A DNA stretch of 64,000 nucleotides from a virus, in IMG/VR virus record IMGVR_UViG_3300046616_000314, positions 412,616 to 476,615 of that record; one strand, 5' to 3'. The notes under the pieces are model-generated. The model ran no database searches and was not told where the DNA came from. It saw nothing but the letters and a program-made list of their open reading frames with translations. A program made the translations under genes and the position numbers. Below, one piece after another: positions 16,401-61,101 of this stretch (within the stretch, counting starts at the first letter, position 1; every line of letters begins with the position of its first letter).

Positions 16401-19400
16401 GACCCGACTTCATCCCAGGAATGACAGTGAAATTCGGATTGCGACCATCGTAGCCGATGACCTTCCAACCCGCTCCGGTCCATTCAATCAAGATACCGCT
16501 ATAGAATTCTTCGCGAATAGAGGGAGAGCGATACAGAACAATTTCGATATCGTCGGTCGGAACCAAGCCGAAATTATCAGCGAGAACCTTCAAGTTATCT
16601 AGTGACGTATAGCCTGCCATTTTGTGAGCCAAACGAACGTCTAGACCACGGATGGAATCACCAAAATTGGAAGCCGGTTGACCGCGATACGCCATGTAAT
16701 CAACGATCCATTGTTGAACGCCGGTCTTCACATAGCGCGAACCATCGGGCGCGGTTTCGCCGTGTACGGTGTTTTGTTCCGAGCGCGGGCGATTGCCGGT
16801 TGGTTCATAAATCCACTGACCGCTAGCGTCTTTAACAATGTCAACGGTATCCCAGCACTCTTCCATGAAGCGCGAAGGCTTCATCAGGAAACTTAGCTTC
16901 GACAAATCGTATTGGAACGTCGAAGAAATTTTCCAAAGATTTTCCACTGGACCTTCATCGCCAGCAACCCAATCGGCACTAGCTTGTTGATAGGTCGGAA
17001 CGTCTGTGACAATACGAGCATCGATAGGATTCAGTAGCTCACCGACATTATCGATAGGCAGGTAGTCCATCAAATTCGGGCGGACGAATCGTGCATCGAA
17101 ACCAGCGCGGGGACCTTGAGCCACGAAACCGTGTTCCATGTGATCCCAAAGCTTAGTGTTGCCGCGCGTATACGGAGCAACCCCGTATTCGGTATCCCAC
17201 CAAATAGGCTTTTCACTGAAGCCCACCATTTCCCACGGGGCGATATGCGGGCGATACGTGTCGAAATAGAAACGATAGATACCTTTCCAGTTACCCGGAA
17301 TAGGTTGAGCATCGCGGTCGCCAACAGCACGATAATTCCAAGTCAAAGGATCATCGGGGGCGAATTGCGAATTCACGATTTCGGTGTCGATATCACGCGA
17401 GCGATAGTTCAAACCAGCAGCTTGTGACCAACTTTCAAGGAAGGGTGTGAGCATCGCTTGGGTTTCAGCATAGGTATAGCCATTGGTAGGCGCCGTACGG
17501 AACTTACCTGCAACGTAACCTTCGATATACAAGATCGGCAGTTCTTCGGTTTTGAAGGACGCATTGATGTTGTCATAGATGCGAGTTTCCAGAGCCAACA
17601 TGATGTCGTCTCGGAAATCACCATCGGTCGGCGTGACGCTATTATCGTGACCTTGCAACATGATTTGCGACGGAACAAACGAAGTGTCTTCGAAAATCAT
17701 AGGCGCGGTGACGCGACCAATACCCAGGCTTGCCGGGGTAGGAGGAATGAAGAACTGATCGCCTGCCATTTCGCTCAGTGCGAATGGGAAATCCGAAGCC
17801 TTGTTCAGACGCAGCTTTTCAAGGATAGCCTGAACCCATTCATCGGGCGTATTGATCCATACAGTTTGACCGTTGCCATCGGCATCGATATCGACGCGCA
17901 TGGTTCCGTTCTTGTAGAAATCAATAATGGCTTGCTTGAATTTGTTACGGAAACGAGTGTACTCGCTTTGAACGTAGCGAATGGAAGCCAAAACATCGTA
18001 ATTGGAATTGCTAGAAACCAACATAGTCTTCAGCATCGGCGAACGATGTTGTAAAATCTTGTCGCCATTGCCTAAGAACTTGTCGGTATCGCGCCAGTTA
18101 TTGACCGTATACGGGTGTCCGGTAAAGCCATCTTGGCTTAGCATGATCGAACTGAAATGGTCGAACCATTGGTTACGGCTGATGTACGAAACTTCATCGT
18201 TGGTCGGGTTCGCCGATAGGTTCAACGGAATCGAATAGACATTCGCAGTCAAGGTTTGGCTCGATGGCTCATCAACGGTGAACCAGTTATTCGAATAGCC
18301 CTCTACCTGACCTGTCGAAGGCAGGAAGTGATGATAGTAATACCCGATGATTTCCCCAGCATCATACGTGACACGGTAGACAATCGGATCAACCTCAAAG
18401 ATAGGTTGAGAGTAAGCGTTGACTGTGATCGGGAAACCCAAATACGGATCGTTTGCGCCAGTACCAATTTGGTAGCTGAATAGTTCGCTACCGTTAAAGT
18501 CAGTGCCAGGATACGACGCAACATCGCCAAGACCGTTCGTGGAAGCATCGAACAGGTTGAACAACGGATTCATCTGGGAACTATCTACCAGAATCCACTT
18601 TTCGCCATCGTACCAATATTCTTCTTGGTCTTCGAATACGCTAGTTGGTCGGTCAGCTTGTGCAGCACGCTCAATGCGGAAAATATCGCCGCGCTTGATC
18701 TCAGCAAATTGAATCAATTCAACAACATCGGCGGTCGCGCCTGAAGGCAGCGGCGTACCGGTGTTCGAAATGACACGATAGATCATGTTGTTAATCTCTG
18801 GTTCATTAGTAACCGTTTGATTAACAAACATCAGATCGTTCGGCTGAAGAATATAATTGTTATCCACCAGCACCGAACCAATGACCTTGCCGTCCATAGT
18901 ACCGAACAGCTTGCCATTGATAGCCGATAGATTGACTTTTTCTTTATCCCAAACGTTGTTGTCCCAAGGATAGATATCCCAGTTGTCGAAGACTGTGGCT
19001 TGCGTAGAAGTCAGAGTAGCTTGAACGTCGGGTAGACGGTTCCAACCATAGTTCCACATTTCGATATTGGGTAGGAATTCAATAATTGGACGCTTTGCCT
19101 TGCGGGCAGCGAAATCCAGACCAGTCCATTCAAGAGCCGATTTGTGAATCCAGAGATTGCGGCGAGCCCAAGGGCTTTGCTCTAACGAACGGCGATCAAT
19201 CACGATATAACGCGGTGTCTCACCACCTTCATCAGAACTGTGATCGTCCGAAAATTGAATGAACGTTCCAACACCTTCTGTGAGATATGTCGTTGCGCTG
19301 TTGTTCGCATCATCGAACATAACTCGCGAACCTGTGGTCAGGTAATCGGCTTCAGCCGCGATCACCCATTGGGTTTCGTCAAATGTTGCGCCCGAAGTGT

Positions 19401-20229
19401 GGGCGATCACGCATCGGCGCGGACCCACACCCGTTACATAAACAAGATCGCCAACGGCATAGGCGTGACCATCCGCTTTCCAAGCAATAAGGAAAGTCAG
19501 CGGTAGGGTTTCCGAGCCGGTGATCGTCGTCTTCAAATCACCGTAGCGATAGGTTTCAACAATGTCACCCACTACCAAACCAGAGACGTTGATTGTTGCG
19601 TAATAGCCAGCAGGATTCAGGTCGGTACGGGTTTGATAGTTTGCCGAAACAGGCTCGCCATTGACCAACACCACCGGATTATATTTTCCGGGGAATTCTG
19701 GTTGTTCACCAGGGACCAGAAATTCACCAGCGGCATTGATGATCGGATCGAAATAGAATGTGTAATGTGGAGCCGATAATTTGATTGAAGTCAGGGCATT
19801 TTCTTCAGTAGAAAGCACACCCATCCAAACATATTGGCTGAAGTTATTGAGCTTATCGAGATCGACAGGGGGAGCCCACGAATAGTATTCGCCTTCAAAC
19901 AGGCGGCTATGGTTCGTAGTATTCGCACCTTGTGAATTCAAATAATTGATAAGATCGTCATAGCAAAGCGTATTGGCGTACGTGCCGGTATTGTCAACGC
20001 TGACCATCGCGGGCTCAAGCTGATAGGCTTGGCGCGTGTCAGTGGGTTCTTCAATATAGAAATCTTTGCTTGGATCATAGTACACGGGCTTCTGACCAAT
20101 ATATCCGCTGATCGGTTCCGAAAGACCCGGTTGGAATAGATGATCGGCTGTCGCAGAGAAGAAACCCTTGAGCGTTTCAGTCTGGTGAACAGCAGGAAGT
20201 TGTGTAATGATTTTACGTTTATCAGCCAT
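13474..20229 (-). CDS. Giant baseplate/virion structural protein, 2251 aa (gp7 position)
   Basis: The largest frame in the window, uninterrupted. It follows gp25 and gp6, the place of gp7 in T4, and is the likely wedge scaffold; T4 gp7 has only about 1030 residues. Two copies of a W-x-x-x...Y-x-V-G-x-x-V...Y-x-x-x-x-x-H-T-S-G-x-T-F module are visible near residues 249-290 and 1293-1335, resembling small carbohydrate-binding-like modules in phage structural proteins. No enzymatic motif seen. A late motif lies 31 nt upstream of the ATG. The gp7 equivalence is positional only. Confidence 0.7.
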   Translation of the reverse strand: MADKRKIITQLPAVHQTETLKGFFSATADHLFQPGLSEPISGYIGQKPVYYDPSKDFYIEEPTDTRQAYQLEPAMVSVDNTGTYANTLCYDDLINYLNSQGANTTNHSRLFEGEYYSWAPPVDLDKLNNFSQYVWMGVLSTEENALTSIKLSAPHYTFYFDPIINAAGEFLVPGEQPEFPGKYNPVVLVNGEPVSANYQTRTDLNPAGYYATINVSGLVVGDIVETYRYGDLKTTITGSETLPLTFLIAWKADGHAYAVGDLVYVTGVGPRRCVIAHTSGATFDETQWVIAAEADYLTTGSRVMFDDANNSATTYLTEGVGTFIQFSDDHSSDEGGETPRYIVIDRRSLEQSPWARRNLWIHKSALEWTGLDFAARKAKRPIIEFLPNIEMWNYGWNRLPDVQATLTSTQATVFDNWDIYPWDNNVWDKEKVNLSAINGKLFGTMDGKVIGSVLVDNNYILQPNDLMFVNQTVTNEPEINNMIYRVISNTGTPLPSGATADVVELIQFAEIKRGDIFRIERAAQADRPTSVFEDQEEYWYDGEKWILVDSSQMNPLFNLFDASTNGLGDVASYPGTDFNGSELFSYQIGTGANDPYLGFPITVNAYSQPIFEVDPIVYRVTYDAGEIIGYYYHHFLPSTGQVEGYSNNWFTVDEPSSQTLTANVYSIPLNLSANPTNDEVSYISRNQWFDHFSSIMLSQDGFTGHPYTVNNWRDTDKFLGNGDKILQHRSPMLKTMLVSSNSNYDVLASIRYVQSEYTRFRNKFKQAIIDFYKNGTMRVDIDADGNGQTVWINTPDEWVQAILEKLRLNKASDFPFALSEMAGDQFFIPPTPASLGIGRVTAPMIFEDTSFVPSQIMLQGHDNSVTPTDGDFRDDIMLALETRIYDNINASFKTEELPILYIEGYVAGKFRTAPTNGYTYAETQAMLTPFLESWSQAAGLNYRSRDIDTEIVNSQFAPDDPLTWNYRAVGDRDAQPIPGNWKGIYRFYFDTYRPHIAPWEMVGFSEKPIWWDTEYGVAPYTRGNTKLWDHMEHGFVAQGPRAGFDARFVRPNLMDYLPIDNVGELLNPIDARIVTDVPTYQQASADWVAGDEGPVENLWKISSTFQYDLSKLSFLMKPSRFMEECWDTVDIVKDASGQWIYEPTGNRPRSEQNTVHGETAPDGSRYVKTGVQQWIVDYMAYRGQPASNFGDSIRGLDVRLAHKMAGYTSLDNLKVLADNFGLVPTDDIEIVLYRSPSIREEFYSGILIEWTGAGWKVIGYDGRNPNFTVIPGMKSGPKGYISLSATPEPSINEWKPNTYYTVGVLVSHNSSVYRVVKSHTSGSTFEQVYYLSDGTLYPQAPRVVTYLRAEDYTESVPYGTILYSQQEVADFLLGHERYMVSKGWRFEQTEGDDNVTQDWTKAVEDFLAWSQVDWAPGNFITVSPGADLLKIIVDQGIVMDILNSPTGSYGMINRTGNPIDRRNVVVNRVDEEVTILSKLADVYGTRVNIQEIEHALFFSNKTIFGDIIYEPLFDLRQPRLRLIGNRSTDWNGRLDAPGFILIDNQIKSNYEKSSTDLSLMFDIEKADNAVLRDHARHAIGYDSRSYLSELVLSDVEQFEFYQGLIHQKGAPGAFDKLLRSNFIEQSRDLKFFEEWAFRIGNFGAPQRERLAFMLGSSQIKRDPQLIRFTTGNSTTLPTWYDLNDANSSVDGNWVERPKTPSTIFPQRADYVALENDLPMGGYIRTNEANYTVFAWSDVPALYVEDTTTLEEGEVIWVHQGEDLHWDALKIRNMSNTGSNNTMIRVDTATEDEEVVGARIYMEADHGLMGNVGAFIGAYVVIDGQTGTTPDLIGVQTISNVGHVVVDNAVTNTEETIGWWFEVPVFPDTGYDFLNQETPETGPEVRIMRSMHYVSNSAFLAERETYNPAEGDIAYVDGPTWGVYLRNGPTVSDWTVARQQPKRMDNEKIASTLVYDLKTSLSTTSLMPEPIRLNYLTVLSPAVGLIPGTAEREIDFRIEYDPAQYVGIDGQWDNSEVGRVWWNTSTVRFIESETDLTSNISDDRLKSELTYRSTTWGKIAPATSVDIYEWFKSDVAPADWLDAQASDPQKYSGTIFNAEDPAWTETVEYDSQLERNVTKYFFWVKGRTITPAVDFRKLDVNTVARILANPIAQDLAWVAPVAPNALLVGGVSPFVTDPLLPVSNVASTSGTVFQLELDNPEEDDVTHDQWLMLRPEDERSIPPDWLWNKMRDSLVGFDDRGNVVPKPYQPPQ

Positions 20230-38362: not shown

Positions 38363-39502
38363 GTGATTTGGCCCTTTAACGATTGGACGAAAGCACGCGA
38401 GAAACGCGAACGCGAAATATTGCGTGATATCAAGGTACTCGAAAGCCAACACGCCCTCTTGAACGCGGCGACGGAAACAGCCGACGCAGCAAATGTTGTT
38501 ACCCACACACTTAAGCAGCGTCTTGAAGATGCTGTTCATCAATTCCAAAGCACTGCACGTATCCTAAACGACGCCCTGATCATTTGTGATGCTACGGGTG
38601 CCATTCAAGCATTTAATCCAGCCGCCGAACGTTTGTTCGGCTTGTCAGCAGACGACGTACGCTCAACGCCGATTGGTGACTTGATTTTATCGGATTGGCT
38701 GAATCTCACTGAGAACGATGAAGGCGTAGGAAAGCACTCGTCGGGTGAATTCCTACGCCTCGATATCAACCACACCCGTCTAGAACGTTCAGACGGAAGC
38801 CTTATCGATCTGTTCGTGCTACGTCAGCGCATGACCGAACTGGAAAATTATAAATCAGTTTTCGAAACATCCTTCGACGGCATCCTTGTCGTCAAAAATC
38901 GCATGATCGTCGCCGCCAACTCTTCCATCGGAAAATTGTTCGGTTACGAAATTGACGATCTGCTTTCGAAGAACGTTGATATTCTTATCGCAGAGAAAGA
39001 CCGGATGCTCTTGGGCGACCACATTGTCAACAGCAAGCTTCAAGGAACCCACCACGACGGCGGCAACCTGAACGTCTATTTCGCTGCGACACCGATCAAA
39101 TGGGACTCCGAACCGGCGAGCCTCATTACGATCAAAAAGATTGCGGAAAGCCGCATGACCGCTCCTAGCTCACGTTTGATTTGTGGCTTCGGAGAAGATT
39201 TCAAAATCACTTTTGCTAACGCCGCGTTCGCGAAGCATTACAATGTCCAAAAGACCGATCTGCCAGGGATGGATATCCGAACCCTTCTCCCCGACAACGA
39301 GTGTGATCCATTCCTGATTCACATTTCCAGCCTCACTCCCGAAGAACCTAGCCGTAGAATGCAGCTTCAAACGAATGCCGCTGACGGTACGTCTCGTTTA
39401 CATGAGTGGACAGATTACGCCACGTTCGATGAAGATGGCGTAGAATATCAGCGCATCGGCAAAGATATTTCCAAGCGTTTCAATACCAAAGATAATTTTT
39501 AA
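38363..39502 (+). CDS. Triple PAS-domain protein without output domain, 379 aa
   Basis: GTG start with GAGG upstream. An N-terminal coiled coil (residues 8-60) precedes three PAS-like repeats: about 65-150 (I-L-N-D-A-L-I-I-C-D...F-N-P-A-A-E-R-L-F-G), 165-255 (F-E-T-S-F-D-G-I-L-V-V...A-N-S-S-I-G-K-L-F-G-Y) and 275-370 (diverged). No histidine kinase, GGDEF or DNA-binding domain follows. PAS domains sense ligands or mediate protein contacts; the late-type promoter suggests expression with virion genes. Convergent with the next gene, overlapping it by 23 bases. Confidence 0.75.
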   Translation: MIWPFNDWTKAREKREREILRDIKVLESQHALLNAATETADAANVVTHTLKQRLEDAVHQFQSTARILNDALIICDATGAIQAFNPAAERLFGLSADDVRSTPIGDLILSDWLNLTENDEGVGKHSSGEFLRLDINHTRLERSDGSLIDLFVLRQRMTELENYKSVFETSFDGILVVKNRMIVAANSSIGKLFGYEIDDLLSKNVDILIAEKDRMLLGDHIVNSKLQGTHHDGGNLNVYFAATPIKWDSEPASLITIKKIAESRMTAPSSRLICGFGEDFKITFANAAFAKHYNVQKTDLPGMDIRTLLPDNECDPFLIHISSLTPEEPSRRMQLQTNAADGTSRLHEWTDYATFDEDGVEYQRIGKDISKRFNTKDNF

Positions 39503-40530: not shown

Positions 40531-40778
40531 TATTGGTAAGAGCCGCCGTCTACTTTGAATTCCATATTCGTCAAATCTTGCAATATTTTTAGCTGTTCGA
40601 CAAGCTTTAAATTTCGTGCAAGCAATTGCCCGATTGCGGAAGCCAGTTCGTAGCCTTCCGGCATGGGAACCTTGATCTCTTTGGAACCCAGGCGGGAGGC
40701 TTGGCGGGCGCGGGTCATGAACGACTCGACAACCGAGAAATCGATATTATCGGTAGGGGGCTTTGAGGTAGGCGGCAT
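40530..40778 (-). CDS. Small unknown protein, 82 aa
   Basis: Overlaps the exonuclease C-terminus by 32 bases. Residues 40-75 are helical with heptad-like leucines (L-A-S-A-I-G-Q-L-L-A-R-N-L-K-L-V). No family recognised. Overlap suggests expression tied to the exonuclease. Confidence 0.55.
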   Translation of the reverse strand: MPPTSKPPTDNIDFSVVESFMTRARQASRLGSKEIKVPMPEGYELASAIGQLLARNLKLVEQLKILQDLTNMEFKVDGGSYQ

Positions 40779-41964
40779 GATCGTGCGCTTCTTTGGTTAG
40801 GTTGGGTAGTTGATTGCGATCACAGAATCGCATGAAGTGAATGCCGACGTTGCCGATGGCGCCTTTTTCAATCGCCGCCATGATCGTTTCATCCATCATG
40901 GTAATGACATCATCAGGTTGCTTGGACAGATCAATCAACAATTCATTGAATCGATATTGATCCAGCACCCGAACTTGTTCGGTAATCGGCTGTCCATCGG
41001 GAGTTGTTTCGACCAGCTTTTCCCAACGTTGGAGCATGAAATTGTTCCAGTTGAAACCTTGCGTCTTGCGATCTTCCCAGGCTTCTTGGATGCCAACCTT
41101 GGACTTAGATGTCCAACGCACGCCAGGATACGCCGAGAAAATACCGTCGCCAGTATCACCACGGATGAGCTTGACGAACAGAGCTAGGCGCCACCATTCC
41201 GGTTCAGGGGTGAAATCGTACTCGACCCATTCGTAAGTAGACGGGACGAAAATTTGCGGAACGTACTCAGGATCATCATTCTTCTTGGACTTTTCCGAAG
41301 CTGCAAATGACACGCCACGGGCTTTTTCGGAGGCAATGTGAGCCTTCTCAAGTTCCTTTTGAGCCTTGTCGTGCTTCTTCTTCATTTCCTCGATAGTGCC
41401 AGGAACTTTGATCTTGCCATCGCTAGGGTTCACGTGGAATTCCATCGGCGTACCCTTACCATCGAAGACACCATCTTGTGTCAGCAGGCGGTCATCAACG
41501 CCGTTGTAGATCGACACGTTAGGAGCGATCAGTTGAACGAAATCGCTATCGCCTGACAGGATGATATGGTCATCATCCTTATGGACCTGAATCCATCGTG
41601 CAACGAAATCATCGCCTTCCACCTTCGGGTGGTGCAGGACGGTACAGCGGGTCTTGTCCTTGAGGAATTCGGTGAAGTCATTCAGCACCGAGAAGAAAGC
41701 TTCGTCTTCTTCTTTATCGGCGGTGCTCTTGGACATACGGTCCAGGCGACGCTTTCCCTTGTATTGTGGGAAGACATCGTATCGCCAGCTTTTGCCTTCA
41801 ACGCAGAACACCATGTGATCGACTTGATAATCACGGTGTAGTTTGCGGAGGCTGCGGAATACGATATGGAGGGACATGCCTGCTTTCATGAAAGCATCAC
41901 CACGAACGACGTGGCGAGCGCGGTGAAAGAGATTGGCAATGTCGATAATTGCGTAACGAGCCAT
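40747..41964 (-). CDS. 5'-3' exonuclease / flap nuclease (T4 RNase H-like)
   Basis: 405 residues; PIN/FEN-type nuclease. Acidic metal-binding residues are visible: Asp8 (I-I-D-I-A-N), Glu116/Asp118/Asp119 (V-E-G-D-D-F), Asp139/Asp141 (S-G-D-S-D-F) and Asp270/Asp273 in R-G-D-T-G-D-G-I-F, the helix-three-turn-type region. A lysine/glutamate-rich insertion (about 188-232) makes it longer than T4 RNase H (305). It should remove RNA primers and flaps during phage replication and may work with the clamp and polymerase encoded upstream. Its ATG is inside a strong hairpin (41960-42009). Confidence 0.85.
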   Translation of the reverse strand: MARYAIIDIANLFHRARHVVRGDAFMKAGMSLHIVFRSLRKLHRDYQVDHMVFCVEGKSWRYDVFPQYKGKRRLDRMSKSTADKEEDEAFFSVLNDFTEFLKDKTRCTVLHHPKVEGDDFVARWIQVHKDDDHIILSGDSDFVQLIAPNVSIYNGVDDRLLTQDGVFDGKGTPMEFHVNPSDGKIKVPGTIEEMKKKHDKAQKELEKAHIASEKARGVSFAASEKSKKNDDPEYVPQIFVPSTYEWVEYDFTPEPEWWRLALFVKLIRGDTGDGIFSAYPGVRWTSKSKVGIQEAWEDRKTQGFNWNNFMLQRWEKLVETTPDGQPITEQVRVLDQYRFNELLIDLSKQPDDVITMMDETIMAAIEKGAIGNVGIHFMRFCDRNQLPNLTKEAHDHAAYLKAPYR

Positions 41965-42025: not shown

Positions 42026-42763
42026 TTACGAAAATTCGCTTGATCCGTCATCGTCGTTACGATGGATGCGGGTGATGCGAGCCGAGTTGAACGGCGTATT
42101 GTCTTGTTCAACCGGAGTCATTTCGGCTTGTGAGCGACACACGTCCGAGAACCATTGTTCCACGACTTGTTCGTCATCGTGACCCATGTAACCGTTCTGG
42201 CGTAGGAAGCTGACCCATTGTTCATTCCAATCCAGTTCGAAGTATAGACCGTTGATGCCTTGCTTTTGGTCAAAGCCGTTGTCAACTACACCTACCCACG
42301 GTTCGTTCTTCAGAGTAGCACATTCTTTTTCAAACTTTTGTTCGGTCAGATGTCCAAATTCGAGATCGACATCAAGCATGGCAATTTTATGAGCCACGCT
42401 TTTTTCGTCAGGGAATTCATCTTTGACTTGAAGGCGAGCAAACGCTTCCGGTTCGATCTTACCGTGTTCGTTTTGGATGTTTGCAATCAGCATAGCCGGA
42501 ACGTCGTCCAGGGTTCCGTGATTGGCGATTGCGAGTTGGATTTCGTACTCATAAGGATCGGTGATCAAACCTTCCTTACGGTCGATAGCGAGCAACTTGA
42601 TCTTTTGCTCTTTTTCATCCTTCGCCGTGATCTTCACAAGCTCGCGCTCTAGATCGGCGCCATCATAGTAGTAGTTTGCTTCGGCGAGTCGCAAAGGATC
42701 GCCCGCAAGACCCCACGCAGCCGGGAGCCAGCTAAAGGGGATCAGTTTACGTTTTCTTGCCAT
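42026..42763 (-). CDS. Conserved T4-like phage protein of unknown function, 245 aa
   Basis: Opening K-R-K-L-I-P-F-S-W-L-P-A-A-W-G-L-x-G followed by A-E-A-N-Y-Y-Y-D-G is a pattern I associate with a conserved hypothetical of marine and jumbo T4-like phages. The middle is a long charged helical region; C-terminus acidic. Start overlaps the last tandem paralogue by 17 bases. A small hairpin (42019-42036) overlaps its stop codon. Confidence 0.6.
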   Translation of the reverse strand: MARKRKLIPFSWLPAAWGLAGDPLRLAEANYYYDGADLERELVKITAKDEKEQKIKLLAIDRKEGLITDPYEYEIQLAIANHGTLDDVPAMLIANIQNEHGKIEPEAFARLQVKDEFPDEKSVAHKIAMLDVDLEFGHLTEQKFEKECATLKNEPWVGVVDNGFDQKQGINGLYFELDWNEQWVSFLRQNGYMGHDDEQVVEQWFSDVCRSQAEMTPVEQDNTPFNSARITRIHRNDDDGSSEFS

Positions 42764-43043
42764 GTTTTCCTTCTAACATTTTCAATGAAAATAAAAATTC
42801 GTCCCACTGGTCTTTCAGCATGGGGCTTTCGTTGATAGCTTTCATAATAACAGCAAAGTCGTGACCAATGTTAATATGATAGAGTAGAGCCTTGACAATC
42901 GCATCCGCATGTTGCGTTGGTGTCTTCCCATCAGGGATTGACCGCATGTCTGGGATGTAAAAGCCGCGACTATTTAGAATACCGATAAGATCAGTGACGA
43001 TCTTAGTATTCAAAGACAGAGAATGTTTGGAGTAATCAGACAT
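42747..43043 (-). CDS. Tandem 'DQW' paralogue 4, 98 aa
   Basis: Shortest member of a tandem family. Shares the C-terminal pattern (L/V)-K-D-Q-W-(D/E)-E-(F/M)-x-x-x-(L/M) preceded by H-D-F-A-V-I-M-K-A-I-N-E-S-P. Its start overlaps the upstream stop by 8 bases (ATGTCTGA). Helical throughout; function unknown. Confidence 0.65.
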   Translation of the reverse strand: MSDYSKHSLSLNTKIVTDLIGILNSRGFYIPDMRSIPDGKTPTQHADAIVKALLYHINIGHDFAVIMKAINESPMLKDQWDEFLFSLKMLEGKHGKKT

Positions 43044-43539
43044 TTTTACCCATCAACTTATCTTCTTTTAACTTGAGCATCATCATGAAATCATCCCATT
43101 GTGCTTTAACAGTGGGGTCTTTTTGGACATATTCACGTAACTGACTGAACCGTTGTGATGCAAGCATGGTATCAACCAAGTAGATCAACATTTTATTTTG
43201 CATTTCACCAGTCCACAATTCTGGTGGAGGGGTTGCACCCTTCGGTACCCATGCCGTCTGTGGTTTAAAATATCGTGTCAGTTCATACAATTCGGGTTCC
43301 GTTACACTCAGATTACTCATATAGAACGGATTACCCTTGGTTCTTGATCGTTCGATTTCATGGAACAAATTTTCAAGAACAACGGCTCGGGCGGCAGCAA
43401 TCTCGTACTGCTTAGTCATGTGTTTGAGTTGATGAGCATACCGTATTTTGTATTCTTCAATCGCTTCTTCGCGAATAATGGCGTCCCATTCGCGAAGTTG
43501 TTCCATGCGTTCTTCTACAGTTTGGGGCGCATTATCCAT
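43036..43539 (-). CDS. Tandem 'DQW' paralogue 3, 167 aa
   Basis: N-terminal half is a long charged helix (E-E-R-M-E-Q-L-R-E-W...E-E-Y-K-I-R-Y), the C-terminus ends V-K-A-Q-W-D-D-F-M-M-M-L-K-L-K-E. The N-terminal helix resembles those of paralogues 1 and 2. Start overlaps the previous stop by 8 bases (ATGGATAA). Confidence 0.65.
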   Translation of the reverse strand: MDNAPQTVEERMEQLREWDAIIREEAIEEYKIRYAHQLKHMTKQYEIAAARAVVLENLFHEIERSRTKGNPFYMSNLSVTEPELYELTRYFKPQTAWVPKGATPPPELWTGEMQNKMLIYLVDTMLASQRFSQLREYVQKDPTVKAQWDDFMMMLKLKEDKLMGKNV

Positions 43540-44011
43540 TTTTCATGGACTCCCGAAGGCGCATAGCAGCCATCATTTCTTCCCATTGGTCTTTGAGCAT
43601 TACGCTCTCTTCCATATGGCTTGCTAGGCGCAAGAAATGATCCCCGCGTTGAATTGCAGAAATCATTTCGTCTAACACCACTTGCTGAGTTTGAGCGCAC
43701 CATTCACCCTTGAACCCAAACTTAAACGGCTCAAGCTCCGATGCAGTCAATTTTGCATTGATGCTTTTATATGTTTCGCTTGCTGAATCCGTGGAGCCAT
43801 ATACAGGTCTAGACCCAGACCGTATATACTCAAGTACACGTTCTATGACCAAAGCTTTGGGGGACACTTCATCAAGTCGCTTTTGAAGTAACTCTACACG
43901 TTCGTCCATTTTAGCTTCAAAATCGGCAATGGCTTCGGCGCGAATTTCTGCTTCCCAGAGACGCATCTTATCCATATGATCGATTTGTTCTTGGGTCAGA
44001 TGATCAGACAT
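43532..44011 (-). CDS. Tandem 'DQW' paralogue 2, 159 aa
   Basis: Same layout: M-D-K-M-R-L-W-E-A-E-I-R-A-E-A-I-A helix at the N-terminus, a variable middle, then M-L-K-D-Q-W-E-E-M-M-A-A-M-R-L. Start overlaps the previous stop by 8 bases (ATGTCTGA). Function unknown. Confidence 0.65.
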   Translation of the reverse strand: MSDHLTQEQIDHMDKMRLWEAEIRAEAIADFEAKMDERVELLQKRLDEVSPKALVIERVLEYIRSGSRPVYGSTDSASETYKSINAKLTASELEPFKFGFKGEWCAQTQQVVLDEMISAIQRGDHFLRLASHMEESVMLKDQWEEMMAAMRLRESMKNG

Positions 44012-44507
44012 TCTTTTCTGCCTCCAAAGCCAACATCATCATCATTTCTTCCCACTGATCTTTCAATCGCGGGTTAGCCTTGATGGATTGAATGAGTTGT
44101 TGGAAATCATACCCAATGACAACTTGTTTCATCATTGCCTGAAATGCGATATCAACTTTATCGTCCAAAGACTTCATGTAATCCGGGTTCTCGGAATCAA
44201 GAACCAGATGAGCAAGTTGAATGTCGGACGTGTCAACTCCGCGAACGTAGAATGCATGAACGAGTCTGCGATAAACCTTGCTTTCAAGAACCACGGCATG
44301 ATAACGACTGCGCATAATAGAACGTTCGTTCTCCAAAGCCTCATTATATGCAGCAGACACCCGCGCTTCAACTTGGCGTTCGATTTCAAAAACGTCGTCG
44401 GATGTTAGAACTTTGGGCGCAGAATCCTTAAATTCTTTTATGAATTCGTGCGACAAATCCTTGAATTCTTGATCCAATTCGGCATCTGATTTTGGTATAT
44501 CTGACAT
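44004..44507 (-). CDS. Tandem 'DQW' paralogue 1, 167 aa
   Basis: First of the series, 22 nt after a CTAAATA motif. N-terminal acidic helix, middle R-S-R-Y-H-A-V-V-L-E-S-K-V-Y, C-terminal D-F-Q-Q-L-I-Q-S-I-K-A-N-P-R-L-K-D-Q-W-E-E-M-M-M-M-L. A fifth relative lies apart at 51148-51423. Confidence 0.65.
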   Translation of the reverse strand: MSDIPKSDAELDQEFKDLSHEFIKEFKDSAPKVLTSDDVFEIERQVEARVSAAYNEALENERSIMRSRYHAVVLESKVYRRLVHAFYVRGVDTSDIQLAHLVLDSENPDYMKSLDDKVDIAFQAMMKQVVIGYDFQQLIQSIKANPRLKDQWEEMMMMLALEAEKNV

Positions 44508-44529
44508 ACAATTCCCTAAACTACGGATT

Positions 44530-44536
44530 TATTTAG
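44530..44536 (-). promoter_or_regulatory. Late-type promoter motif CTAAATA
   Basis: On the - strand, 22 nt upstream of the start at 44507 and directly after the clamp terminator. Confidence 0.4.
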
Positions 44537-44537
44537 T

Positions 44538-44564
44538 AAAAAGGGGAGAGCTTTCGCCCTCCCC
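44538..44564 (-). terminator. Rho-independent terminator for the clamp transcript
   Basis: On the - strand GGGGAG...CTCCCC with inner GC pairs is followed by TTTTTAC. The 109 bases between it and the clamp stop (44565-44673) hold no ORF, only a small GTGAT/ATCAC hairpin. Confidence 0.8.
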
Positions 44565-44673
44565 CGAAAAACGCAGCGAGCCATCTGTGAGACTTCCCGC
44601 CACTTCCATTGCCCGCAAGTGATTTGGATCACCTCCCGATTCTGTAAGATTGGCAGGCAACAGCCCGTATTTC

Positions 44674-45405
44674 TTAGCGAGAAGCGCGGAGGAAATACGT
44701 GTAGTTACCGTGTGGGGTTTCTACGGAGACTGAGAAAACGCCACGACCGGTAATGCTGAACTTCACGGGATTAGACCCGCTCAGTTTAACGGCTGAAAGC
44801 AGATGTTGGACGTTGAACTTGACCGAACCACGGATATCACCCGTGACACCTGTTTCGAAAATCATGCTGGCACGGTGCGACGCAGAGTCGTCGTCACCGA
44901 TGTAGAATTCCAGATTGCCATCTACGGTACGCACACCAAATTGGGGATCGATGTTGGCATACAGGTTCGCCAGTTGGGCAAACTCAGTCAGCTTCGACTT
45001 TGACGGTGTGAATTCAACATCCCAGGGGATGTTGGCGATGGTGGCTTGTTCAGGAGCAAGCTTGGGGTCCATCAGGCGAAACACGGCTTGGTTGCCTGTC
45101 ACCTTGTTGCTGAATTCGAACTGATCGATGATCGAACGCTCGTCACGCTTCACGGTCTTAACGTTGAACGTGGCGTCATCGGTGCAGTAATTCGAGAAAT
45201 TCAGCAAGCCATTCAGCAAGCTCATGTTAGCAATGGCAAACTCGCCATTGAATTCAGGGATTGCCTTCTTTAGACGGGCTTCAATGAAGAATGCCTTATC
45301 CTTATCGCAAGCCTTGATAGTCGTCTCATCGGCGGAACCCAGGACGCGAAGCACGTCAACAAGTCCGCTTGTCTGCTTAAGCAGATCGATCAATACATCA
45401 CGCAT
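44674..45405 (-). CDS. DNA polymerase sliding clamp (gp45-like)
   Basis: 243 residues; T4 gp45 has 228. Shows the gp45-type pattern of repeated beta-alpha-beta units, with K-A-F-F-I-E-A-R-L near 36, F-S-N-Y-C-T-D-D near 70 and the C-terminal S-V-E-T-P-H-G-N-Y-T-Y-F-L-R-A close. As a trimer it should hold the polymerase on DNA; in T4 the same clamp also activates late promoters, which fits the TAAATA motifs here. Lies 63 bases after the 45469 gene and downstream of the polymerase. Confidence 0.75.
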   Translation of the reverse strand: MRDVLIDLLKQTSGLVDVLRVLGSADETTIKACDKDKAFFIEARLKKAIPEFNGEFAIANMSLLNGLLNFSNYCTDDATFNVKTVKRDERSIIDQFEFSNKVTGNQAVFRLMDPKLAPEQATIANIPWDVEFTPSKSKLTEFAQLANLYANIDPQFGVRTVDGNLEFYIGDDDSASHRASMIFETGVTGDIRGSVKFNVQHLLSAVKLSGSNPVKFSITGRGVFSVSVETPHGNYTYFLRASR

Positions 45406-45855: not shown

Positions 45856-48657
45856 TCACCATGAGAAAAATTCATCAGCGGGCGCATCCTTAGTCTTGGA
45901 TAGGTCCCACTTCAGCACGCCAACGAGGTTGTCGAGCTTGTTGTCAATGATCACGTCTTCCATGGCGCGGTGATCGAAGGGCAGAGCCTTGAACCATGCC
46001 GGAATGTGAGGTTCGTCAATCGGATAAGCCACACTCGTCATACCCATGAGGTTTGCCTTGAGCTTACAAACGATGATCTTGGCGCCATCACCGATCCGCA
46101 TAGAATAGCGGTCGTTGTTGCTTTCGCAGAGTTGGTTCCAGTTCATCGACGCGCGGACGTGTCCAGGCACGTTGACCTTTGCCTTTTCGCCCTTGGTCAT
46201 CTTCAGCGATTGCTCAAGAGTCATATCGCGACCCTTTTGGAAACGTTGAGTGTAGTCCATCAGAGCGGACACCTTCTTAGGCGAGCCCTTTTCCCAGCCA
46301 GGACGGTTCACAAATTCCTTGCGGAACTTACGAATATCTTCGAACATATCTTCTTTCTTCGCACCGGTTAGGATGTTCATCAGAAGGGATTCTAGGAATT
46401 CCTGCATGTACTTCGGGGTATCCGAACGCTTCAGATCGAGACCCATAGCCTTCAGCTTGCCCGGCTTGCCATCCTTATCCAGGCGCTTGCCGTCCTTGTC
46501 ATACATCAGCACCGCATACTTTTTCTTCTTGATGAAGAGAGCGGTAGACGCAACAAGTTCTCGACCAGCCTTAATAATCCCGCCACGCTCAAGCGTCGTG
46601 TTGAACGTCTTGTGCATGAATTCGGGGAAGCTGTCATTTGCGGAATCCGCGATCACGTCATACAAACTGATGATGTTCTCGCGGGTCCATTCGAAGTCCA
46701 CATAACGAGGATCATTCTTCAGGATTTTAGCAGCAGAGAAATAGCAGGAGTCGGTATCGGCGTAGCAGATTGCGTCGCCCATGTAGTCATATTCGCCAGC
46801 AATGATTTCGTTGATCTTAGCGTTCATGTGCCGAACGATAGAGCGACCGGTTAGAGTAACCGATTGACCCAGACGTTCATCATAGAAGCGAAGACCTTCG
46901 TTCAGCAACGCGCCGTACAGCGAGTTGAGCAAAATCTTACGAGCTTGTTGACGCTGATTCCAGAACCCAGCCCAATATTTGTAGTCGGCTTTCTTGTCAG
47001 CGTCCGTTTCGGCAGCAGCCAAGTCTTCAAACTCAACTTGCTTGCCTTGCATTTCCTGACGTTCGGCATACCACTTCGCCAGGAGCATCGGAATGATGCC
47101 ATCCTTGCGGGTAGAGAAGAGAGTACCGTTGGCAGTGATGCAGACTTGGTTACGTGGGTTATACACGTAATCGAACAGATCACGCCCCGACATGGTACGA
47201 GTAACACCATCTTCGAAGTCGATAGTCAGAGGCGCACCATCGCGGGCGTGCATATGATCGACTTCTAGAGCGCAGAAAATACCATCCCAGGCTTCAGCGC
47301 GAGGCACGCCACGGGCGATACGTTCGGCGACCAGAGCCATTGTTTCGTCAATACGAACCTGACCGACGATGGTTTCGGGGCTCATGTTCAGAGCACGAAT
47401 GCACGACGGGTACAGCGAGTTGATGTCAACGCAGCCGACTTCTTCATGGATGCCGGTCTTAGGCTTAGCTACATAGGCGCCGACGACGGGTGTACGACCT
47501 TCATCGTCCTCATCGTCTTCGTCACGATCTTCGGGAGAATATTCTTCATCGAACTTGGGTTTGCGGTCAGGAACCACGAAACCCATGGCGTGCATTTCGT
47601 TGATGATCGCGGTTTCCACCAGGGAAACCGAACCCATCGTCGTCTTCAGCAGAACGCAGTTTGCGTGAGCAATTTGGTTCGCCAGTTCAATGAACTTCTT
47701 CTTCGCGTCGATCTTGACCAACAGCATAGTATCTTGGCGGTTATATTCAATAAACCGCTTGAAATCATAGTTGTATAGTTGGTCAAGCGTGCCTTCGTAG
47801 ACAGTCTTGTTGTCACCAACTTCAACTTCCGCCACATAATCCAGACGATACGAGTGGAGTTGTTGCGGGTTATGCTTCTGATACAGGTCCAGATAGTCAA
47901 GGTGGACCCGACCAACCAAGTCGTAAGTCTTGTGCTTACGCTTGAACTTCAGATACTCGCGTTCACGGGGCTTCTGGTTCCACAAGCACAACGCGCGAGT
48001 GGTATCGGAGTCCATGATGCGTTGAATGCGGTTGACGATATAGGGAATATCGAAACCCGTGCTGTTCCAGCCCGACAGTACGTCGGCTTCATCGATCAGT
48101 TCTAGGAAGGTTCGTAGCAGTTCTTTTTCATCATTGAAAAGGAACGTGTCTTCGAATTCTTCACAGATTTTCGTACCTTCAGCGAAATCCACGGTCTTAG
48201 GGCATAGAACCAAGCTGATGAGCCGGTTGATATGCGATAGGTGCAGAGAGATCGCTGTAATCGCGTTGAAGGGGTCTGTGACGGGCGCAAAGCCGCGATC
48301 TGGGTCAAAGTCCACTTCAATGTCGAAAAAGCCTACGTTAAGCTTAGGAGCGTCAACACCCATGTAGTTGTCAGCGAGACAACGAAACACGGGGTTGATA
48401 TCGCTTTCGAAAATCTTGACGGGATTCTTTGCGCCGAAGGGTGAGCGCGTCCGCATCAGTTCCTTGCGGAACTTCTTGCTATCGGTCGTAGTGAATTTGC
48501 GGCAGGGATCACCGAAGATGCTCAGGTTAGAGCCTTGCGGGTGATCGTAGTAGAAAACGTAATTGGCGTCGAATTCGGTTAGAATACGTTCGCCATTGAT
48601 CCGTTCTGCGACAAGGATTTTATCTTTTTTTCTATCGATTATCGCGTCAACAAACAT
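45856..48657 (-). CDS. Family B DNA polymerase (T4 gp43-like)
   Basis: 933 residues; T4 gp43 has 898. Exonuclease motifs: Asp112/Glu114 (F-F-D-I-E), Asp203 (G-F-D-I-P-Y), Asp309 (Y-N-R-Q-D-T). Polymerase motifs: A, D411-I-N-S-L-Y-P-S; B, K574-x-x-x-N-S-L-Y-G; C, Y-A-D634-T-D636-S. All catalytic residues are present, so replication and proofreading should be active. An acidic insertion (371-390, E-D-R-D-E-D-D-E-D-D) lies between the exonuclease and palm domains. Neighbours are a small gene and the clamp. Confidence 0.95.
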   Translation of the reverse strand: MFVDAIIDRKKDKILVAERINGERILTEFDANYVFYYDHPQGSNLSIFGDPCRKFTTTDSKKFRKELMRTRSPFGAKNPVKIFESDINPVFRCLADNYMGVDAPKLNVGFFDIEVDFDPDRGFAPVTDPFNAITAISLHLSHINRLISLVLCPKTVDFAEGTKICEEFEDTFLFNDEKELLRTFLELIDEADVLSGWNSTGFDIPYIVNRIQRIMDSDTTRALCLWNQKPREREYLKFKRKHKTYDLVGRVHLDYLDLYQKHNPQQLHSYRLDYVAEVEVGDNKTVYEGTLDQLYNYDFKRFIEYNRQDTMLLVKIDAKKKFIELANQIAHANCVLLKTTMGSVSLVETAIINEMHAMGFVVPDRKPKFDEEYSPEDRDEDDEDDEGRTPVVGAYVAKPKTGIHEEVGCVDINSLYPSCIRALNMSPETIVGQVRIDETMALVAERIARGVPRAEAWDGIFCALEVDHMHARDGAPLTIDFEDGVTRTMSGRDLFDYVYNPRNQVCITANGTLFSTRKDGIIPMLLAKWYAERQEMQGKQVEFEDLAAAETDADKKADYKYWAGFWNQRQQARKILLNSLYGALLNEGLRFYDERLGQSVTLTGRSIVRHMNAKINEIIAGEYDYMGDAICYADTDSCYFSAAKILKNDPRYVDFEWTRENIISLYDVIADSANDSFPEFMHKTFNTTLERGGIIKAGRELVASTALFIKKKKYAVLMYDKDGKRLDKDGKPGKLKAMGLDLKRSDTPKYMQEFLESLLMNILTGAKKEDMFEDIRKFRKEFVNRPGWEKGSPKKVSALMDYTQRFQKGRDMTLEQSLKMTKGEKAKVNVPGHVRASMNWNQLCESNNDRYSMRIGDGAKIIVCKLKANLMGMTSVAYPIDEPHIPAWFKALPFDHRAMEDVIIDNKLDNLVGVLKWDLSKTKDAPADEFFSW

Positions 48658-50163: not shown

Positions 50164-51138
50164 TTAAGCCGCGTCGTCCGCGACCAGTTTCCAACGCGAA
50201 ACGAAATCGCGCAGTTCGCGGAGGTTCAAGCCGTTAGCTTCGGCATAAGCCTTTTCACCACCGGCTTCCGCCAGGGCATCCGCATAAGCTTGGCGAGCCG
50301 GGACGTTAGATGTCAGCAGGCTAACCAGAACATTGACTTCCATACGAGAATTGGTTGTCGCGTCACGGATATAATCGTCAAACGCTTCCACGGTAGCCGG
50401 GAACAACGGTTGGATCAGATCGTAAACGGCTTGGGCGAACACTCGAATTTCGTATTGGGCGTGCGGGTCAGCGCGCAGCTTAATCAGGTGCAACAGGTTG
50501 TGTAGGTTCTGCGACCAGTAAAGTTCGCTGTAGATACCTACCGGAAGAATGGTACGAGCCATTTCGCGAGCGACACCATCAAAATCCTTGCCGAACACCG
50601 GATCATCTTCGCTGAACACGTCGTAGGCGACTTCACCTTGCGCGTTCGGCTCACGGTCGCCCAGAAGCGCGCGGTAGGCGTCATAGGCTTGACGATTGGT
50701 TTGTTCGATCATCCAACGAACACCCGTGGCATTCTCGGCAGACATTTCACCAGCGCGACCTTGTTTGTTATCCGAGCTTTGCGGCTTGATAACATCCATT
50801 TCCGGCAGATAGAAATCGTCGTCCAGAACCGAGTAGCGTGCGCTTTCTTCGTTCAGAGAAGCCGTGCGGTGACGGTTCCATTGACGTAGAACAAAGATAG
50901 GAGCCTTGATATGCAGCTTCACTTGGCATTGTTCGATAGGGCTAGTGTGTTTGTGGCTCACCAGATAACGAATCAAGCCACGGTCCTCGCGGACAGTCTT
51001 GGTTCCGGCGCCATAGGACACGCGGGCGGCTTGGACGATTGCGGCGTCCGAACCCATGTAGTCTACTAAGCCTAGAAAACCATGATCCAAGACAGCAATG
51101 TACTTAGGATCGTTCAAAATATCAGCTTGTTTAGTCAT
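50164..51138 (-). CDS. thyX: Flavin-dependent thymidylate synthase (ThyX)
   Basis: 324 residues. The ThyX signature R-H-R-x-x-S-x-N-x-x-S-x-R-Y-S is present at 89-103, with the preceding V-L-R-Q-W. Converts dUMP to dTMP using FAD and methylene-tetrahydrofolate. The length is above the usual 220-300 because of a C-terminal extension of about 60 residues. Phage ThyX boosts dTTP supply for replication. Next to, but not overlapping, a 'DQW' paralogue. Confidence 0.95.
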   Translation of the reverse strand: MTKQADILNDPKYIAVLDHGFLGLVDYMGSDAAIVQAARVSYGAGTKTVREDRGLIRYLVSHKHTSPIEQCQVKLHIKAPIFVLRQWNRHRTASLNEESARYSVLDDDFYLPEMDVIKPQSSDNKQGRAGEMSAENATGVRWMIEQTNRQAYDAYRALLGDREPNAQGEVAYDVFSEDDPVFGKDFDGVAREMARTILPVGIYSELYWSQNLHNLLHLIKLRADPHAQYEIRVFAQAVYDLIQPLFPATVEAFDDYIRDATTNSRMEVNVLVSLLTSNVPARQAYADALAEAGGEKAYAEANGLNLRELRDFVSRWKLVADDAA

Positions 51139-51147
51139 TGAAAACTC

Positions 51148-51423
51148 TTAATAGAAATTAGAAATATCATATGGAGAAGCCGCCACCGGGGAGGCTTCAA
51201 AAATCTTTTCGTCTTCGGGACGCTTGAGCTTCCACATAGTGACGAAATCCATCCAATTTTGGAGGATGATCGGGTCTTTCTTGATTGCGTCTTGCATCGC
51301 TCGATATATAGCAGCCTGTTTCTTGGCTTCGGCATACTGGCGTTGCATCGTACGAATTTCTTCATTCAAGCGGCTAATTAGCTCCGCTTGCTTCTGGATC
51401 ATACGTTGATCTTGGCTAGGCAT
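51148..51423 (-). CDS. Dispersed 'DQW' paralogue 5, 91 aa
   Basis: N-terminal charged helix (M-I-Q-K-Q-A-E-L-I-S-R-L-N-E-E-I-R) and a C-terminal A-I-K-K-D-P-I-I-L-Q-N-W-M-D-F-V-T-M-W-K-L matching the end of the tandem family at 42747-44507, with Q-N-W in place of D-Q-W. Ten bases upstream of ThyX. Confidence 0.6.
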   Translation of the reverse strand: MPSQDQRMIQKQAELISRLNEEIRTMQRQYAEAKKQAAIYRAMQDAIKKDPIILQNWMDFVTMWKLKRPEDEKIFEASPVAASPYDISNFY

Positions 51424-56883: not shown

Positions 56884-59211
56884 TTATTCAGCAATTTCGG
56901 CGACTACCGCGACTTCAGGCGGCTTGGTAGCCGCGATAGGGGTCACGACGATCTTGTCTTCGACCACTCGCACCATGGCGATGCCGCCGTACGGAGTCAG
57001 TTCGCCGATCAGCATCATCTTGGAAAGCGGCTTCTTGATCGTTTCCTTGATCAGACGGTTCAACGGGCGGGCGCCCATCGCACGGTCGTAGCCGTTCTTG
57101 GCGAGCCACTGAACAGCAGCTTCATCAAGGTCCAGGGTGACGTTGCGTTCCTTCGCCATGTCTTCCAACTGACCGATGAACTTATGGACAATCTTTTCCA
57201 TATTTTCAGGAGCCAGGAAGTTGAACATGACCGTGGCGTCGAGGCGGTTGCGGAATTCGGGGCTGAAACGCTTCTCGATAGCCTTTTCCGCATCCTGCGT
57301 TTGTTGCTGACCACCGAAGCCCAGAGGGTTCTTAGCCAGCATTTCCGCGCCCGCGTTCGAAGTCAGGATCAGAATAATATTCTGGAACGAGACCGTCTTA
57401 CCCGTCGAGTTGGACAGGCGACCATCGTCCATGACTTGAAGCAGGATGTTTTGAATGTCGGCGTGAGCCTTTTCAAATTCGTCCAGCAGGACCACGGCGC
57501 GCGGGTGATTATCCACTTCGTTGACCAGCTTGCCACCAGCCGCGCCACCTTCGCCGTGACCGACGTAGCCAGGAGGCGAGCCTATCAGCTTAGCGACCGA
57601 ATGCTTTTCCATGTATTCCGACATATCGTACTTGAGCATCGGAACGCCCAGCGTGTCAGCCAGGGCACGAGCGGTTTCGGTCTTACCCGAACCGGTCGGA
57701 CCAGCGAAGAGGTAGCAACCCGCCGTCTTGTTGGCTTCGCGCAGACCGGCACGGGCAATGTAAACGTCGGTTTCCAGGGCTTCGATGGCTTGATCTTGAC
57801 CGAAGACGCGAGCCCGAAGGTTCTTTTCCAAGTCCTTCAGGTTGTCTTGTTCATCACCCGAGACCTGTTGAGCCGGAATGTTGGCGACTTCGGAAATCTC
57901 GTACTCGATTTGCGCAACATCGATGATCTTGATGCGCTCGGCTTCCGGGGTGATACGCTGACGGGCGCCCGCGCCGTCGATCAGATCAATCGACTTGTCG
58001 GGGTTCTTTTGACCGGTGATGTAGCGAGTCGAGAGATCAACCGCCGCATCAAGGGCTTCGTCGGTGTACGTAACTTCGTGGAACTTTTCGAAGGTTTCAC
58101 GCAGACCGCGCAGGATCAGCTTGGTTTCCGCGATGGTCGGCTCATCAGCCGTGACCTTCTGGAAACGACGACGAAGGGCGGCGTCCTTGTCGAAATGCTT
58201 CTGATATTCGTCCAGGGTGGTCGAACCGATGCAACGCAGCGTGCCGCGAGCCAGGGCGGGCTTCAGCAGGTTCGCAACGTCCATGGTACCTTGGCTCGAT
58301 GCCCCGGCGCCCATGATGTTGTGAATTTCGTCCACGAACAGAATGGAGCCTTCCACCATTTCCAGGGACTTGATGACTTGCTTCATACGTTCTTCGAAAT
58401 CACCACGGTACTTTGTACCGGCGATCAGATCAGCGATTTCGAGCGAATAGACCGTCGAAGCCTTCAGATTGTCGGGGACTTCGCCCTTGACGATCTTATA
58501 TGCCAGACCTTCGGCGATGGCAGTCTTACCCACGCCAGCGTCACCGACGATCAGCGGGTTGTTCTTGCGGCGACGCGAAATGATTTGTTGGATGCGCAGT
58601 AGTTCGACCGAACGACCAATCAGCGGATCGATGCGACCAGCGACAGCTTCGGCGTTCAAATCCTTGGTGTACTTCTTCAGGATTTCCTTGGCGTCTTCCA
58701 AGGTCAGAACTTCCTTGGATTGCTGGATCGGCTCGCCATCGGGACCGACTTCACCATTGGGGCTCAGAATGCGGGCGATCTTGAGTTGAACGTCGGCGCC
58801 GCCGAACTTCTTGAGGACAGCGATAGCGTGGCTGTCGTCGTCATCGTGGCTGACCAGATGATAGAGAATGTGACCAGCCGTGGTGGCATTGGGCTGACCC
58901 TCGCGTTGCGAGAACATCGCGTGCGACACGGCGCGGGCGATAATGTGGTTGAAACCTTCCGAGGCGACCGGGCGACCACCCGAGACCGGAATGATGCCGC
59001 TTTTTAGAATGCTTTCCAGAATCGGCGTCAGGTTGGTATCCGCCGGGGTCAGCACCTTGGACAAAATGTCCTGAACTTGCGGTTCTGCCAGGAGAGCCAG
59101 CAGAAGGTGTTCGGGAGTCACGTACTCATGGCGGTGCTTGACGGCAATGGCTTCGGCGCGGTGAATGTTCGCCAAAATTTCTTGATGTTGGGGAGGCTGA
59201 TTTTTAGACAT
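56884..59211 (-). CDS. clpA: ClpA-type AAA+ unfoldase
   Basis: 775 residues (bacterial ClpA about 758). Clp N-domain 1-150; D1 Walker A G-D-A-G-V-G-K-T 223-230 and Walker B I-L-F-V-D-E 290-296; D2 Walker A G-P-T-G-S-G-K-T 504-511 and Walker B V-V-L-L-D-E 574-579. L-G-F at 630-632 is at the place of the ClpP-docking loop, so it may dock to host ClpP. All ATPase motifs are intact. Start overlaps the deformylase stop (TAATG). Phage-encoded ClpA is unusual; it may redirect host proteolysis or unfold virion proteins. Confidence 0.95.
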
Positions 59212-60246: not shown

Positions 60247-60274
60247 AATTTAACACGAAATTCTCGTTTGTCAA
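60247..60274 (-). promoter_or_regulatory. sigma70-like promoter TTGACA-N16-TAAATT
   Basis: On the - strand TTGACA is 60274-60269, overlapping the DnaJ stop codon; TAAATT is 60252-60247. It would drive secreted protein, deformylase and ClpA apart from DnaJ. Confidence 0.5.
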
Positions 60275-61101
60275 GAGTTGGGAGGGTTTTTAAATGAACG
60301 AAGTATCGTTTTTTGTTCTTCTGATACATTATTAGGCAAAATAATGTTAACAACGATATGTAATGGACCAAAGATGTCAGTACGTCCCAAGGCAGGCATA
60401 CCTTTACCATCAATAGTAATCATTGTTCCAGTTTGAACATCCGCCGGTAATTTGTACTGAATGTTTTCTCCACTCAGGGTGCGAACCCAAAATGTGTCAT
60501 TGATCATCGCGTCAACCGCATCAATGTCAGCACGGGTAAACAACTCGGTTCCCTGACGTTGGAACATACCATGTTCAGCAACGTGGATGATGACATACAA
60601 GTCGCCGGGAGGTAGTGACTTGTCGGCATCATCACCTAGACCCGTCATTTTCAATCGGGCTCCTGATTCAATACCGCGAGGAATGTTGAATTTGATTTCC
60701 CGATTCGCGGGAGCCCCTAGATTCATGGAAACCTCACCACCTTCAAACGCTTGTAAGAGCGTGACTTGATAATGAGTGGTGTAATCCCGATTGGTGGGCT
60801 TAGGGGGCGGTCCAGGGTGTTGTTGATGCCAGAAATTCCGAAGGATGTCTTCAAAACTCGGGTTGTTCATATCAAAATGGAACTGGCGATTTCCACCCGA
60901 TGATTGTTGGCGAAGACTATCGCGCGAAGCTTGATCTTTGATTTGATTATAAGCGTGCGTGACTTCTTCAAATTTTGCGCGAGCTTCATCAGTATTGTTA
61001 AGATCAGGATGATACTTCTTAGCCAAACCACGATAAGCGGTCTTGATAACATCATCGTTCGCATCTTGGGGAACGCCCAAGACGGCATAAGGATTGGTCA
61101 T
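60271..61101 (-). CDS. DnaJ/CbpA-type co-chaperone
   Basis: 276 residues. J-domain 1-68 with the Hsp70-activating His-Pro-Asp at 31-33 and Y-A-V-L-G-V start; a short Gly/Asn linker; then C-terminal substrate-binding domains (I-E-S-G-A-R-L-K, L-P-P-G-D-L-Y-V, D-V-Q-T-G-T-M-I). No zinc-finger cysteines, so it is the class B or CbpA type. It would recruit host DnaK to phage proteins. Lies between spanins and the deformylase/ClpA group. Confidence 0.9.
   Translation of the reverse strand: MTNPYAVLGVPQDANDDVIKTAYRGLAKKYHPDLNNTDEARAKFEEVTHAYNQIKDQASRDSLRQQSSGGNRQFHFDMNNPSFEDILRNFWHQQHPGPPPKPTNRDYTTHYQVTLLQAFEGGEVSMNLGAPANREIKFNIPRGIESGARLKMTGLGDDADKSLPPGDLYVIIHVAEHGMFQRQGTELFTRADIDAVDAMINDTFWVRTLSGENIQYKLPADVQTGTMITIDGKGMPALGRTDIFGPLHIVVNIILPNNVSEEQKTILRSFKNPPNS

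Follow-up and report, generated by a model that had tools for sequence, protein, structure and literature searches.

The function of most genes of the largest phages is unassigned. It has been reported that Bacillus phage G carries a zinc ribbon family in about 35 copies (PMC7824862). The genome considered here, a 561,116-base IMG/VR virus record (~561 kb), belongs among the T4-related jumbo phages according to its clamp, polymerase and exonuclease genes, and, judged by the clamp, the cultured phages closest to it are Sinorhizobium phage Phosso (39% identity) and, second, Agrobacterium phage Atu_ph07 (32%). The 64,000-nucleotide stretch of this record that was analysed, hereafter the window, contains five small open reading frames, A to E, all of them present on the - strand as the preliminary description had them (Table 1). 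Along that strand, the DNA polymerase gene is followed by a 127-aa gene, the clamp gene, a stretch without coding sequence, A to D in that order, and then the phrog_13349 and 5'-3' exonuclease genes. Profile searches of the whole record found five copies, A to E; an additional match was weak (E 0.07) and lay in an open frame of 27 codons, and it was left out of the count.

Table 1. Features of the two loci and their counterparts in related phages; HMM E values are from the profile built solely from relatives.
Feature	Position	Strand	Remarks
5'-3' exonuclease	40747-41964	-	
phrog_13349 gene	42026..42763	-	245 aa; after D, 17-base overlap with D
Paralog D	42747..43043	-	98 aa; mostly C-terminal domain; closest to A; HMM E 4.7e-12
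C/D stop/start overlap	43036..43043	-	8 bases, ATGTCTGA
Paralog C	43036..43539	-	167 aa; HMM E 9.4e-8
B/C stop/start overlap	43532..43539	-	8 bases, ATGGATAA
Paralog B	43532..44011	-	159 aa; full-length similarity greatest to C; HMM E 2.1e-7
A/B stop/start overlap	44004..44011	-	8 bases, ATGTCTGA
Paralog A	44004..44507	-	167 aa, pI 4.8; charged N-terminal region; motif of the C-terminal helical hairpin, GYDFQQLIQSIKANPRLKDQWEEMMMMLAL; HMM E 3.1e-9
T4-type late-promoter-like motif	44529..44536	-	CTAAATAA, ahead of A
Conserved structured non-coding RNA	44530..44670	-	about 140 nt; 3' end of polymerase-clamp operon
Intrinsic terminator closing the RNA	about 44538-44565	-	
Sliding-clamp-like gene, phrog_12062	44674..45405	-	directly upstream of array; anchor for relatives
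DNA polymerase	45856-48657	-	
ThyX	50164..51138	-	downstream neighbour of E
Paralog E	51148..51423	-	91 aa; adjoins ThyX; divergent member; positional orthologs
Positional orthologs of E	L013:1941-2261; L015:1742-2044; L018:59-364		also Atu_ph07 AUZ95029.1
Conserved RNA in relatives	L012:10732-10870; L013:11043-11180; L014:4751-4892; L015:7671-7808; L017:7199-7338; L018:6633-6767; L019:1276-1416		

The relationship proposed for A to D was borne out by two kinds of comparison. In local alignments scored against shuffled sequences, every pair among the four (A-B, A-C, A-D, B-C, B-D and C-D) gave p values of 1e-5 to 3e-12. In a non-circular test, an HMM built solely from relatives, with zero window rows, was run on 11,141 ORFs and matched A to D at E values of 4.7e-12 to 2.1e-7. 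It might be argued that the resemblance is one of chance or of helix composition among unrelated genes, since charged helical proteins yield spurious matches and E alone was matched weakly (E 0.02) by the same HMM; however, that HMM ranked A to D far above the rest of the ORFs, which contradicts the argument for these four, and the synteny is common to the relatives, so that such an explanation is very improbable indeed. Judged by these sequence comparisons, A to D are true paralogs, although highly diverged ones: the identity of the paralogs to A is 14-31%, and the region common to the family is the C-terminal ~50 residues. Of the two features originally described as shared, the C-terminal block stands, whereas N-terminal charged helices are clearly common only to B and C.

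The pairs involving E were weaker against the shuffles (C-E, 3e-4; D-E, 2e-3), and A-E and B-E fell short of significance. When E-type rows were left out of the training, the HMM matched the E orthologs in L013, L015 and L018, with E values of 3.7e-10, 4.9e-8 and 4.2e-5, and E is therefore a family member by way of its orthologs. The order of an about 220-aa gene, a phrog_2831-like gene, an about 100-aa gene, E and ThyX is identical in the window and in L015. Rather than the stray fifth copy for which it had been taken, E is an old ortholog retained beside ThyX, at the same place in relatives.

The loci of the relatives (L012 to L019) were collected from IMG/VR by scanning with the clamp. At the clamp locus, the window has four copies, L012 three, L013 and L018 two each and L017 one, and L014, L015, L016 and L019 have none. 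At the ThyX-side locus, where the gene order is alike, one copy each was found in the window, L013, L015/L016 and Atu_ph07, in which AUZ95029.1 is the single member in that neighbourhood. In Phosso, XYS97433, XYS97434 and XYS97435 form a tandem row behind the same two upstream genes, so that its ThyX-side locus probably holds three tandem copies, and XYS97325 is located elsewhere. When the cultured-phage rows were left out of the HMM, the Atu_ph07 member was matched at 2.9e-10, XYS97434 at 6e-7, XYS97435 at 4e-5 and XYS97325 at 4e-4; XYS97433 gave E 0.84 and was found only by the joint profile that includes XYS97433 itself. XYS97436 (L078:7555-7845), which follows the tandem members, has a look-alike C-terminus, QPSVQEAFTRLQTLIKL, that is missed by the profile, and it is possibly a fourth tandem member.

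The tandem genes on the ThyX side of Phosso and the array at the clamp locus together indicate tandem growth at two loci, and the suggestion of an expanding family is thus upheld by the copy numbers in related phages. As read from the sequences of the relatives, tandem duplication has occurred repeatedly, with one C-terminal helical hairpin kept throughout. In a tree of the short C-terminal region, one Phosso pair and the E-type group (99/97) were the sole groupings with support, and its resolution stops short of deciding whether A to D arose within the window lineage. The wide range of copy numbers, including the relatives with none at the clamp locus, would also be expected if a small gene had been amplified in tandem in a mostly neutral manner, with little selection for diversification. 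The hairpin motif and the reading frames were nevertheless retained across strongly diverged members and phages, and we consider neutral amplification improbable.

The statement that A to E belong to no known family and have no known function was supported by Pfam, PHROG, PDB sequence and Foldseek searches. With a known family taken as a Pfam or PHROG match above the cut-off or at E <= 1e-3, A to E matched none (best Pfam E 0.02, best PHROG E 0.023), nor did the relatives' members match any PHROG family (best E 0.0068). Neither the hairpin profile nor the full profile matched any PDB sequence, Foldseek against BFVD and PDB gave nothing at E <= 1, and the best VIA-align hits, at Z <= 3.7, were to unrelated helical proteins and were uninformative. 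A scan of IMG/VR with the five-sequence alignment of A to E gave zero confirmed relatives, and tblastn of paralog A in phages gave a chance match only. At E <= 1e-3 the family was absent from PA5oct, GAP32, CBB, RaK2, PBECO4, XacN1, XbC2, XaC1, Hallingskeid, SCTP-2 and Vibrio 2.275.O. A to E represent an undescribed protein family of a T4-related jumbo phage clade, and within the scope of these searches its members were limited to jumbo phages related to Atu_ph07 and Phosso. Small terminases of the T4 gp16 type form coiled-coil hairpins and are similar in size to the members of this family. A small terminase was considered because of this size and the helical hairpin, and the candidate was dropped for want of support: neither by sequence nor by fold did A to E match solved small terminases, in searches that are weak with helical models, and no terminase gene was seen beside the array.

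Structure prediction of single chains agreed on the common region. The AlphaFold2 model of C has a helix at residues 8-67, a low-confidence linker and a helical hairpin at 111-140/142-162, and that of an L018 member likewise has a long N-terminal helix, a linker and a C-terminal helical hairpin. In both models, which come from two genomes, the block-mean pLDDT of the hairpin core was about 91-96, and the overall pTM was 0.37 and 0.40. The hairpin, whose consensus is xxGxDFxxLxxAIxxxPxLxxEWxRFxxxLRL, contains one near-invariant Trp. The models therefore suggest a family architecture of a variable, mostly helical N-terminal part, a linker and a conserved C-terminal helical hairpin, in which the N-terminal helix is a candidate coiled coil, named so by its length and charge only.

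Three successive junctions in the array overlap by exactly 8 bases, as previously noted; A/B and C/D share the same 8 bases and B/C differs. Three such overlaps in a row are mildly unusual. In the window and the related loci, however, 8-base overlaps make up 10% of overlaps and are the third commonest length after 4 and 1. The overlap between the GroES and phrog_13349 genes is 8 bases in GAP32, CBB, RaK2, PBECO4, XbC2 and Hallingskeid, and in L018 the last paralog overlaps the phrog_13349 gene by 8 bases. Since 8-base overlaps are ordinary here and are not conserved in the relatives, where the paralog junctions are 4, 8, 1 or none, the case that the duplication unit includes the junction is weak, and it is rejected as a general rule.

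A motif of the T4 late-operon type (TATAAATA-like) lies directly upstream of the first gene of the array, as TACTAAATAAAT ahead of A. Counting both strands, the window has 23 copies of TAAATA, and the motif is found in 12 gene-upstream stretches totalling 3.3 kb; this is an 11-fold enrichment in gene-upstream regions with a binomial p of 8e-14, which is optimistic because some stretches entered the count for both of two divergent genes and because the background takes no account of the lower intergenic GC. L012, L013, L015, L017 and L018 retain the motif upstream of either the cluster or the next gene. ATAAATA has been predicted as a late promoter in CBB and is reported to have been predicted before structural genes of GAP32 as well (PMC5259590). 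The motif and its position make late activation of the four-gene array, along with the virion genes, probable. A PAS protein with several PAS-domain matches (379 aa, 38363-39502, +), which is unusual for a phage, also stands behind a late-type motif, AATAAATAAATC. Elsewhere in the window, a ClpA/ClpB-like AAA+ protein (775 aa, 56884-59211, -) is encoded near a DnaJ protein (276 aa, 60271-61101, -).

Between the clamp and the array lies a conserved structured RNA, present in eight relatives including some without the array. Covariation in the alignment is strong: 22 of 37 pairs have changed on both sides and 91% of cells pair, vs 41-57% when slid, figures that are favoured by the structure having been derived from the same alignment. 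There was no Rfam match above threshold. The invariant core of the RNA, GGGAGGTGA, is extended to GGAGGTGATCCA in the window and L017, and we take the latter to be complementary to the 3' end of bacterial 16S rRNA. A DNA pattern scan for the core gave 21 stretches, and those outside the clamp relatives look like chance. Weak second matches of the RNA model in the same genome and in G001 were rejected as terminators only. Phosso has a shorter stretch after the clamp with the same plan by eye, which the RNA model does not find. This RNA may be more novel than the gene family, and it is a separate, clean target.

The position of the array near replication genes had led to the suggestion of replication-linked dosage or diversification. 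In that case A to E would be accessories acting with the sliding clamp, the 5'-3' exonuclease and ThyX, as the place of the array between the clamp and exonuclease genes and of E next to ThyX might indicate. Position is the sole hint, however, and the motif ahead of A is late-type. The terminator-bearing RNA and this motif part the array from the clamp operon, L014, L015 and L019 have the same replication genes without the array, and the Phosso genes are located elsewhere. We therefore regard a role in replication as unlikely.

We prefer the reading, with a probability of roughly 0.4, that A to E are late, self-associating assembly or adaptor proteins. This reading is based on the late-type TAAATA ahead of the array, whose string CTAAATAAATCCGTAGTTTA is close to CATAAATAAAGTCGTAGTTTA ahead of a 2251-aa gene (13474-20229), and on the next gene, phrog_13349, which is of the category head and packaging and is annotated virion structural in RaK2, GAP32, PA5oct and PBECO4, where "structural" rests on annotation. 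A single late mRNA would carry the array together with the phrog_13349 gene, and translational coupling through the stop/start overlaps would keep the amounts of the paralogs similar. The conserved hairpin could then serve as a common docking or self-association surface, the variable N-terminal helices could set partner or oligomer specificity, and the tandem products could form hetero-oligomers or act as alternative adaptors in late virion assembly. Several observations count against an assembly role: E and its orthologs lack TAAATA upstream and stand among nucleotide-metabolism genes, the Phosso members are at a distance from genes annotated as structural, no fold or sequence match points to function, and CBB_269, the CBB homolog of the phrog_13349 protein, was not found in the available part of the CBB MS table (PMC5259590). 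As a separate observation, the C-terminal ~100 residues of the phrog_13349 protein form a widespread T4-like domain without a Pfam model; among the matches listed, 593 of 600 IMG/VR candidate stretches match it, and in L139 it is a 144-aa gene of its own, two genes upstream of the 5'-3' exonuclease.

Alternatively, A to E could be accessory host-takeover or counter-defence proteins, small and fast-diverging binders that are anchored by their conserved hairpin to a single hub of phage or host and whose N-terminal parts diversify against host targets. We give this a minor but real chance. It would suit the extreme divergence of the paralogs, the patchy copy number across relatives and the Phosso members in accessory regions beside a tRNA gene and small ORFs; on the other hand, the main array stands behind a late-type, not an early, promoter motif, and the position of the E ortholog is old and conserved. 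A more elaborate form of the assembly or adaptor reading, which we consider quite unlikely as a whole, sees in the array a modular hetero-oligomer kit with coupled translation. In this kit the hairpin would assemble or dock every member, repeated tandem duplication at the two loci would let the phage diversify the N-terminal helices, and the outcome would be a particle part or an adaptor set that varies; the conserved RNA may here keep the late mRNA of the array separate from the polymerase-clamp mRNA. If the reading of a hairpin with variable helices is true, this would be a phage building specificity by tandem duplication.

The family is now defined by a signature at the HMM level, by its clade, by its two home loci and by its changing copy number, and its role is therefore testable in the cultured phages Phosso and Atu_ph07. 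AUZ95029.1 of Atu_ph07 and XYS97433, XYS97434, XYS97435 and XYS97325 of Phosso, all labelled "hypothetical protein", have the same C-terminal hairpin motif, and AUZ95029.1 and XYS97433-435 share the ThyX-side gene neighbourhood of E. Both phages differ from the window in that their clamp locus is without members, and Phosso expanded the ThyX-side locus instead. Like the zinc ribbon of phage G (PMC7824862), A to E represent a clade-restricted expansion of a small protein family in a giant phage, but they are an unrelated family, with far fewer copies, arranged in tandem.
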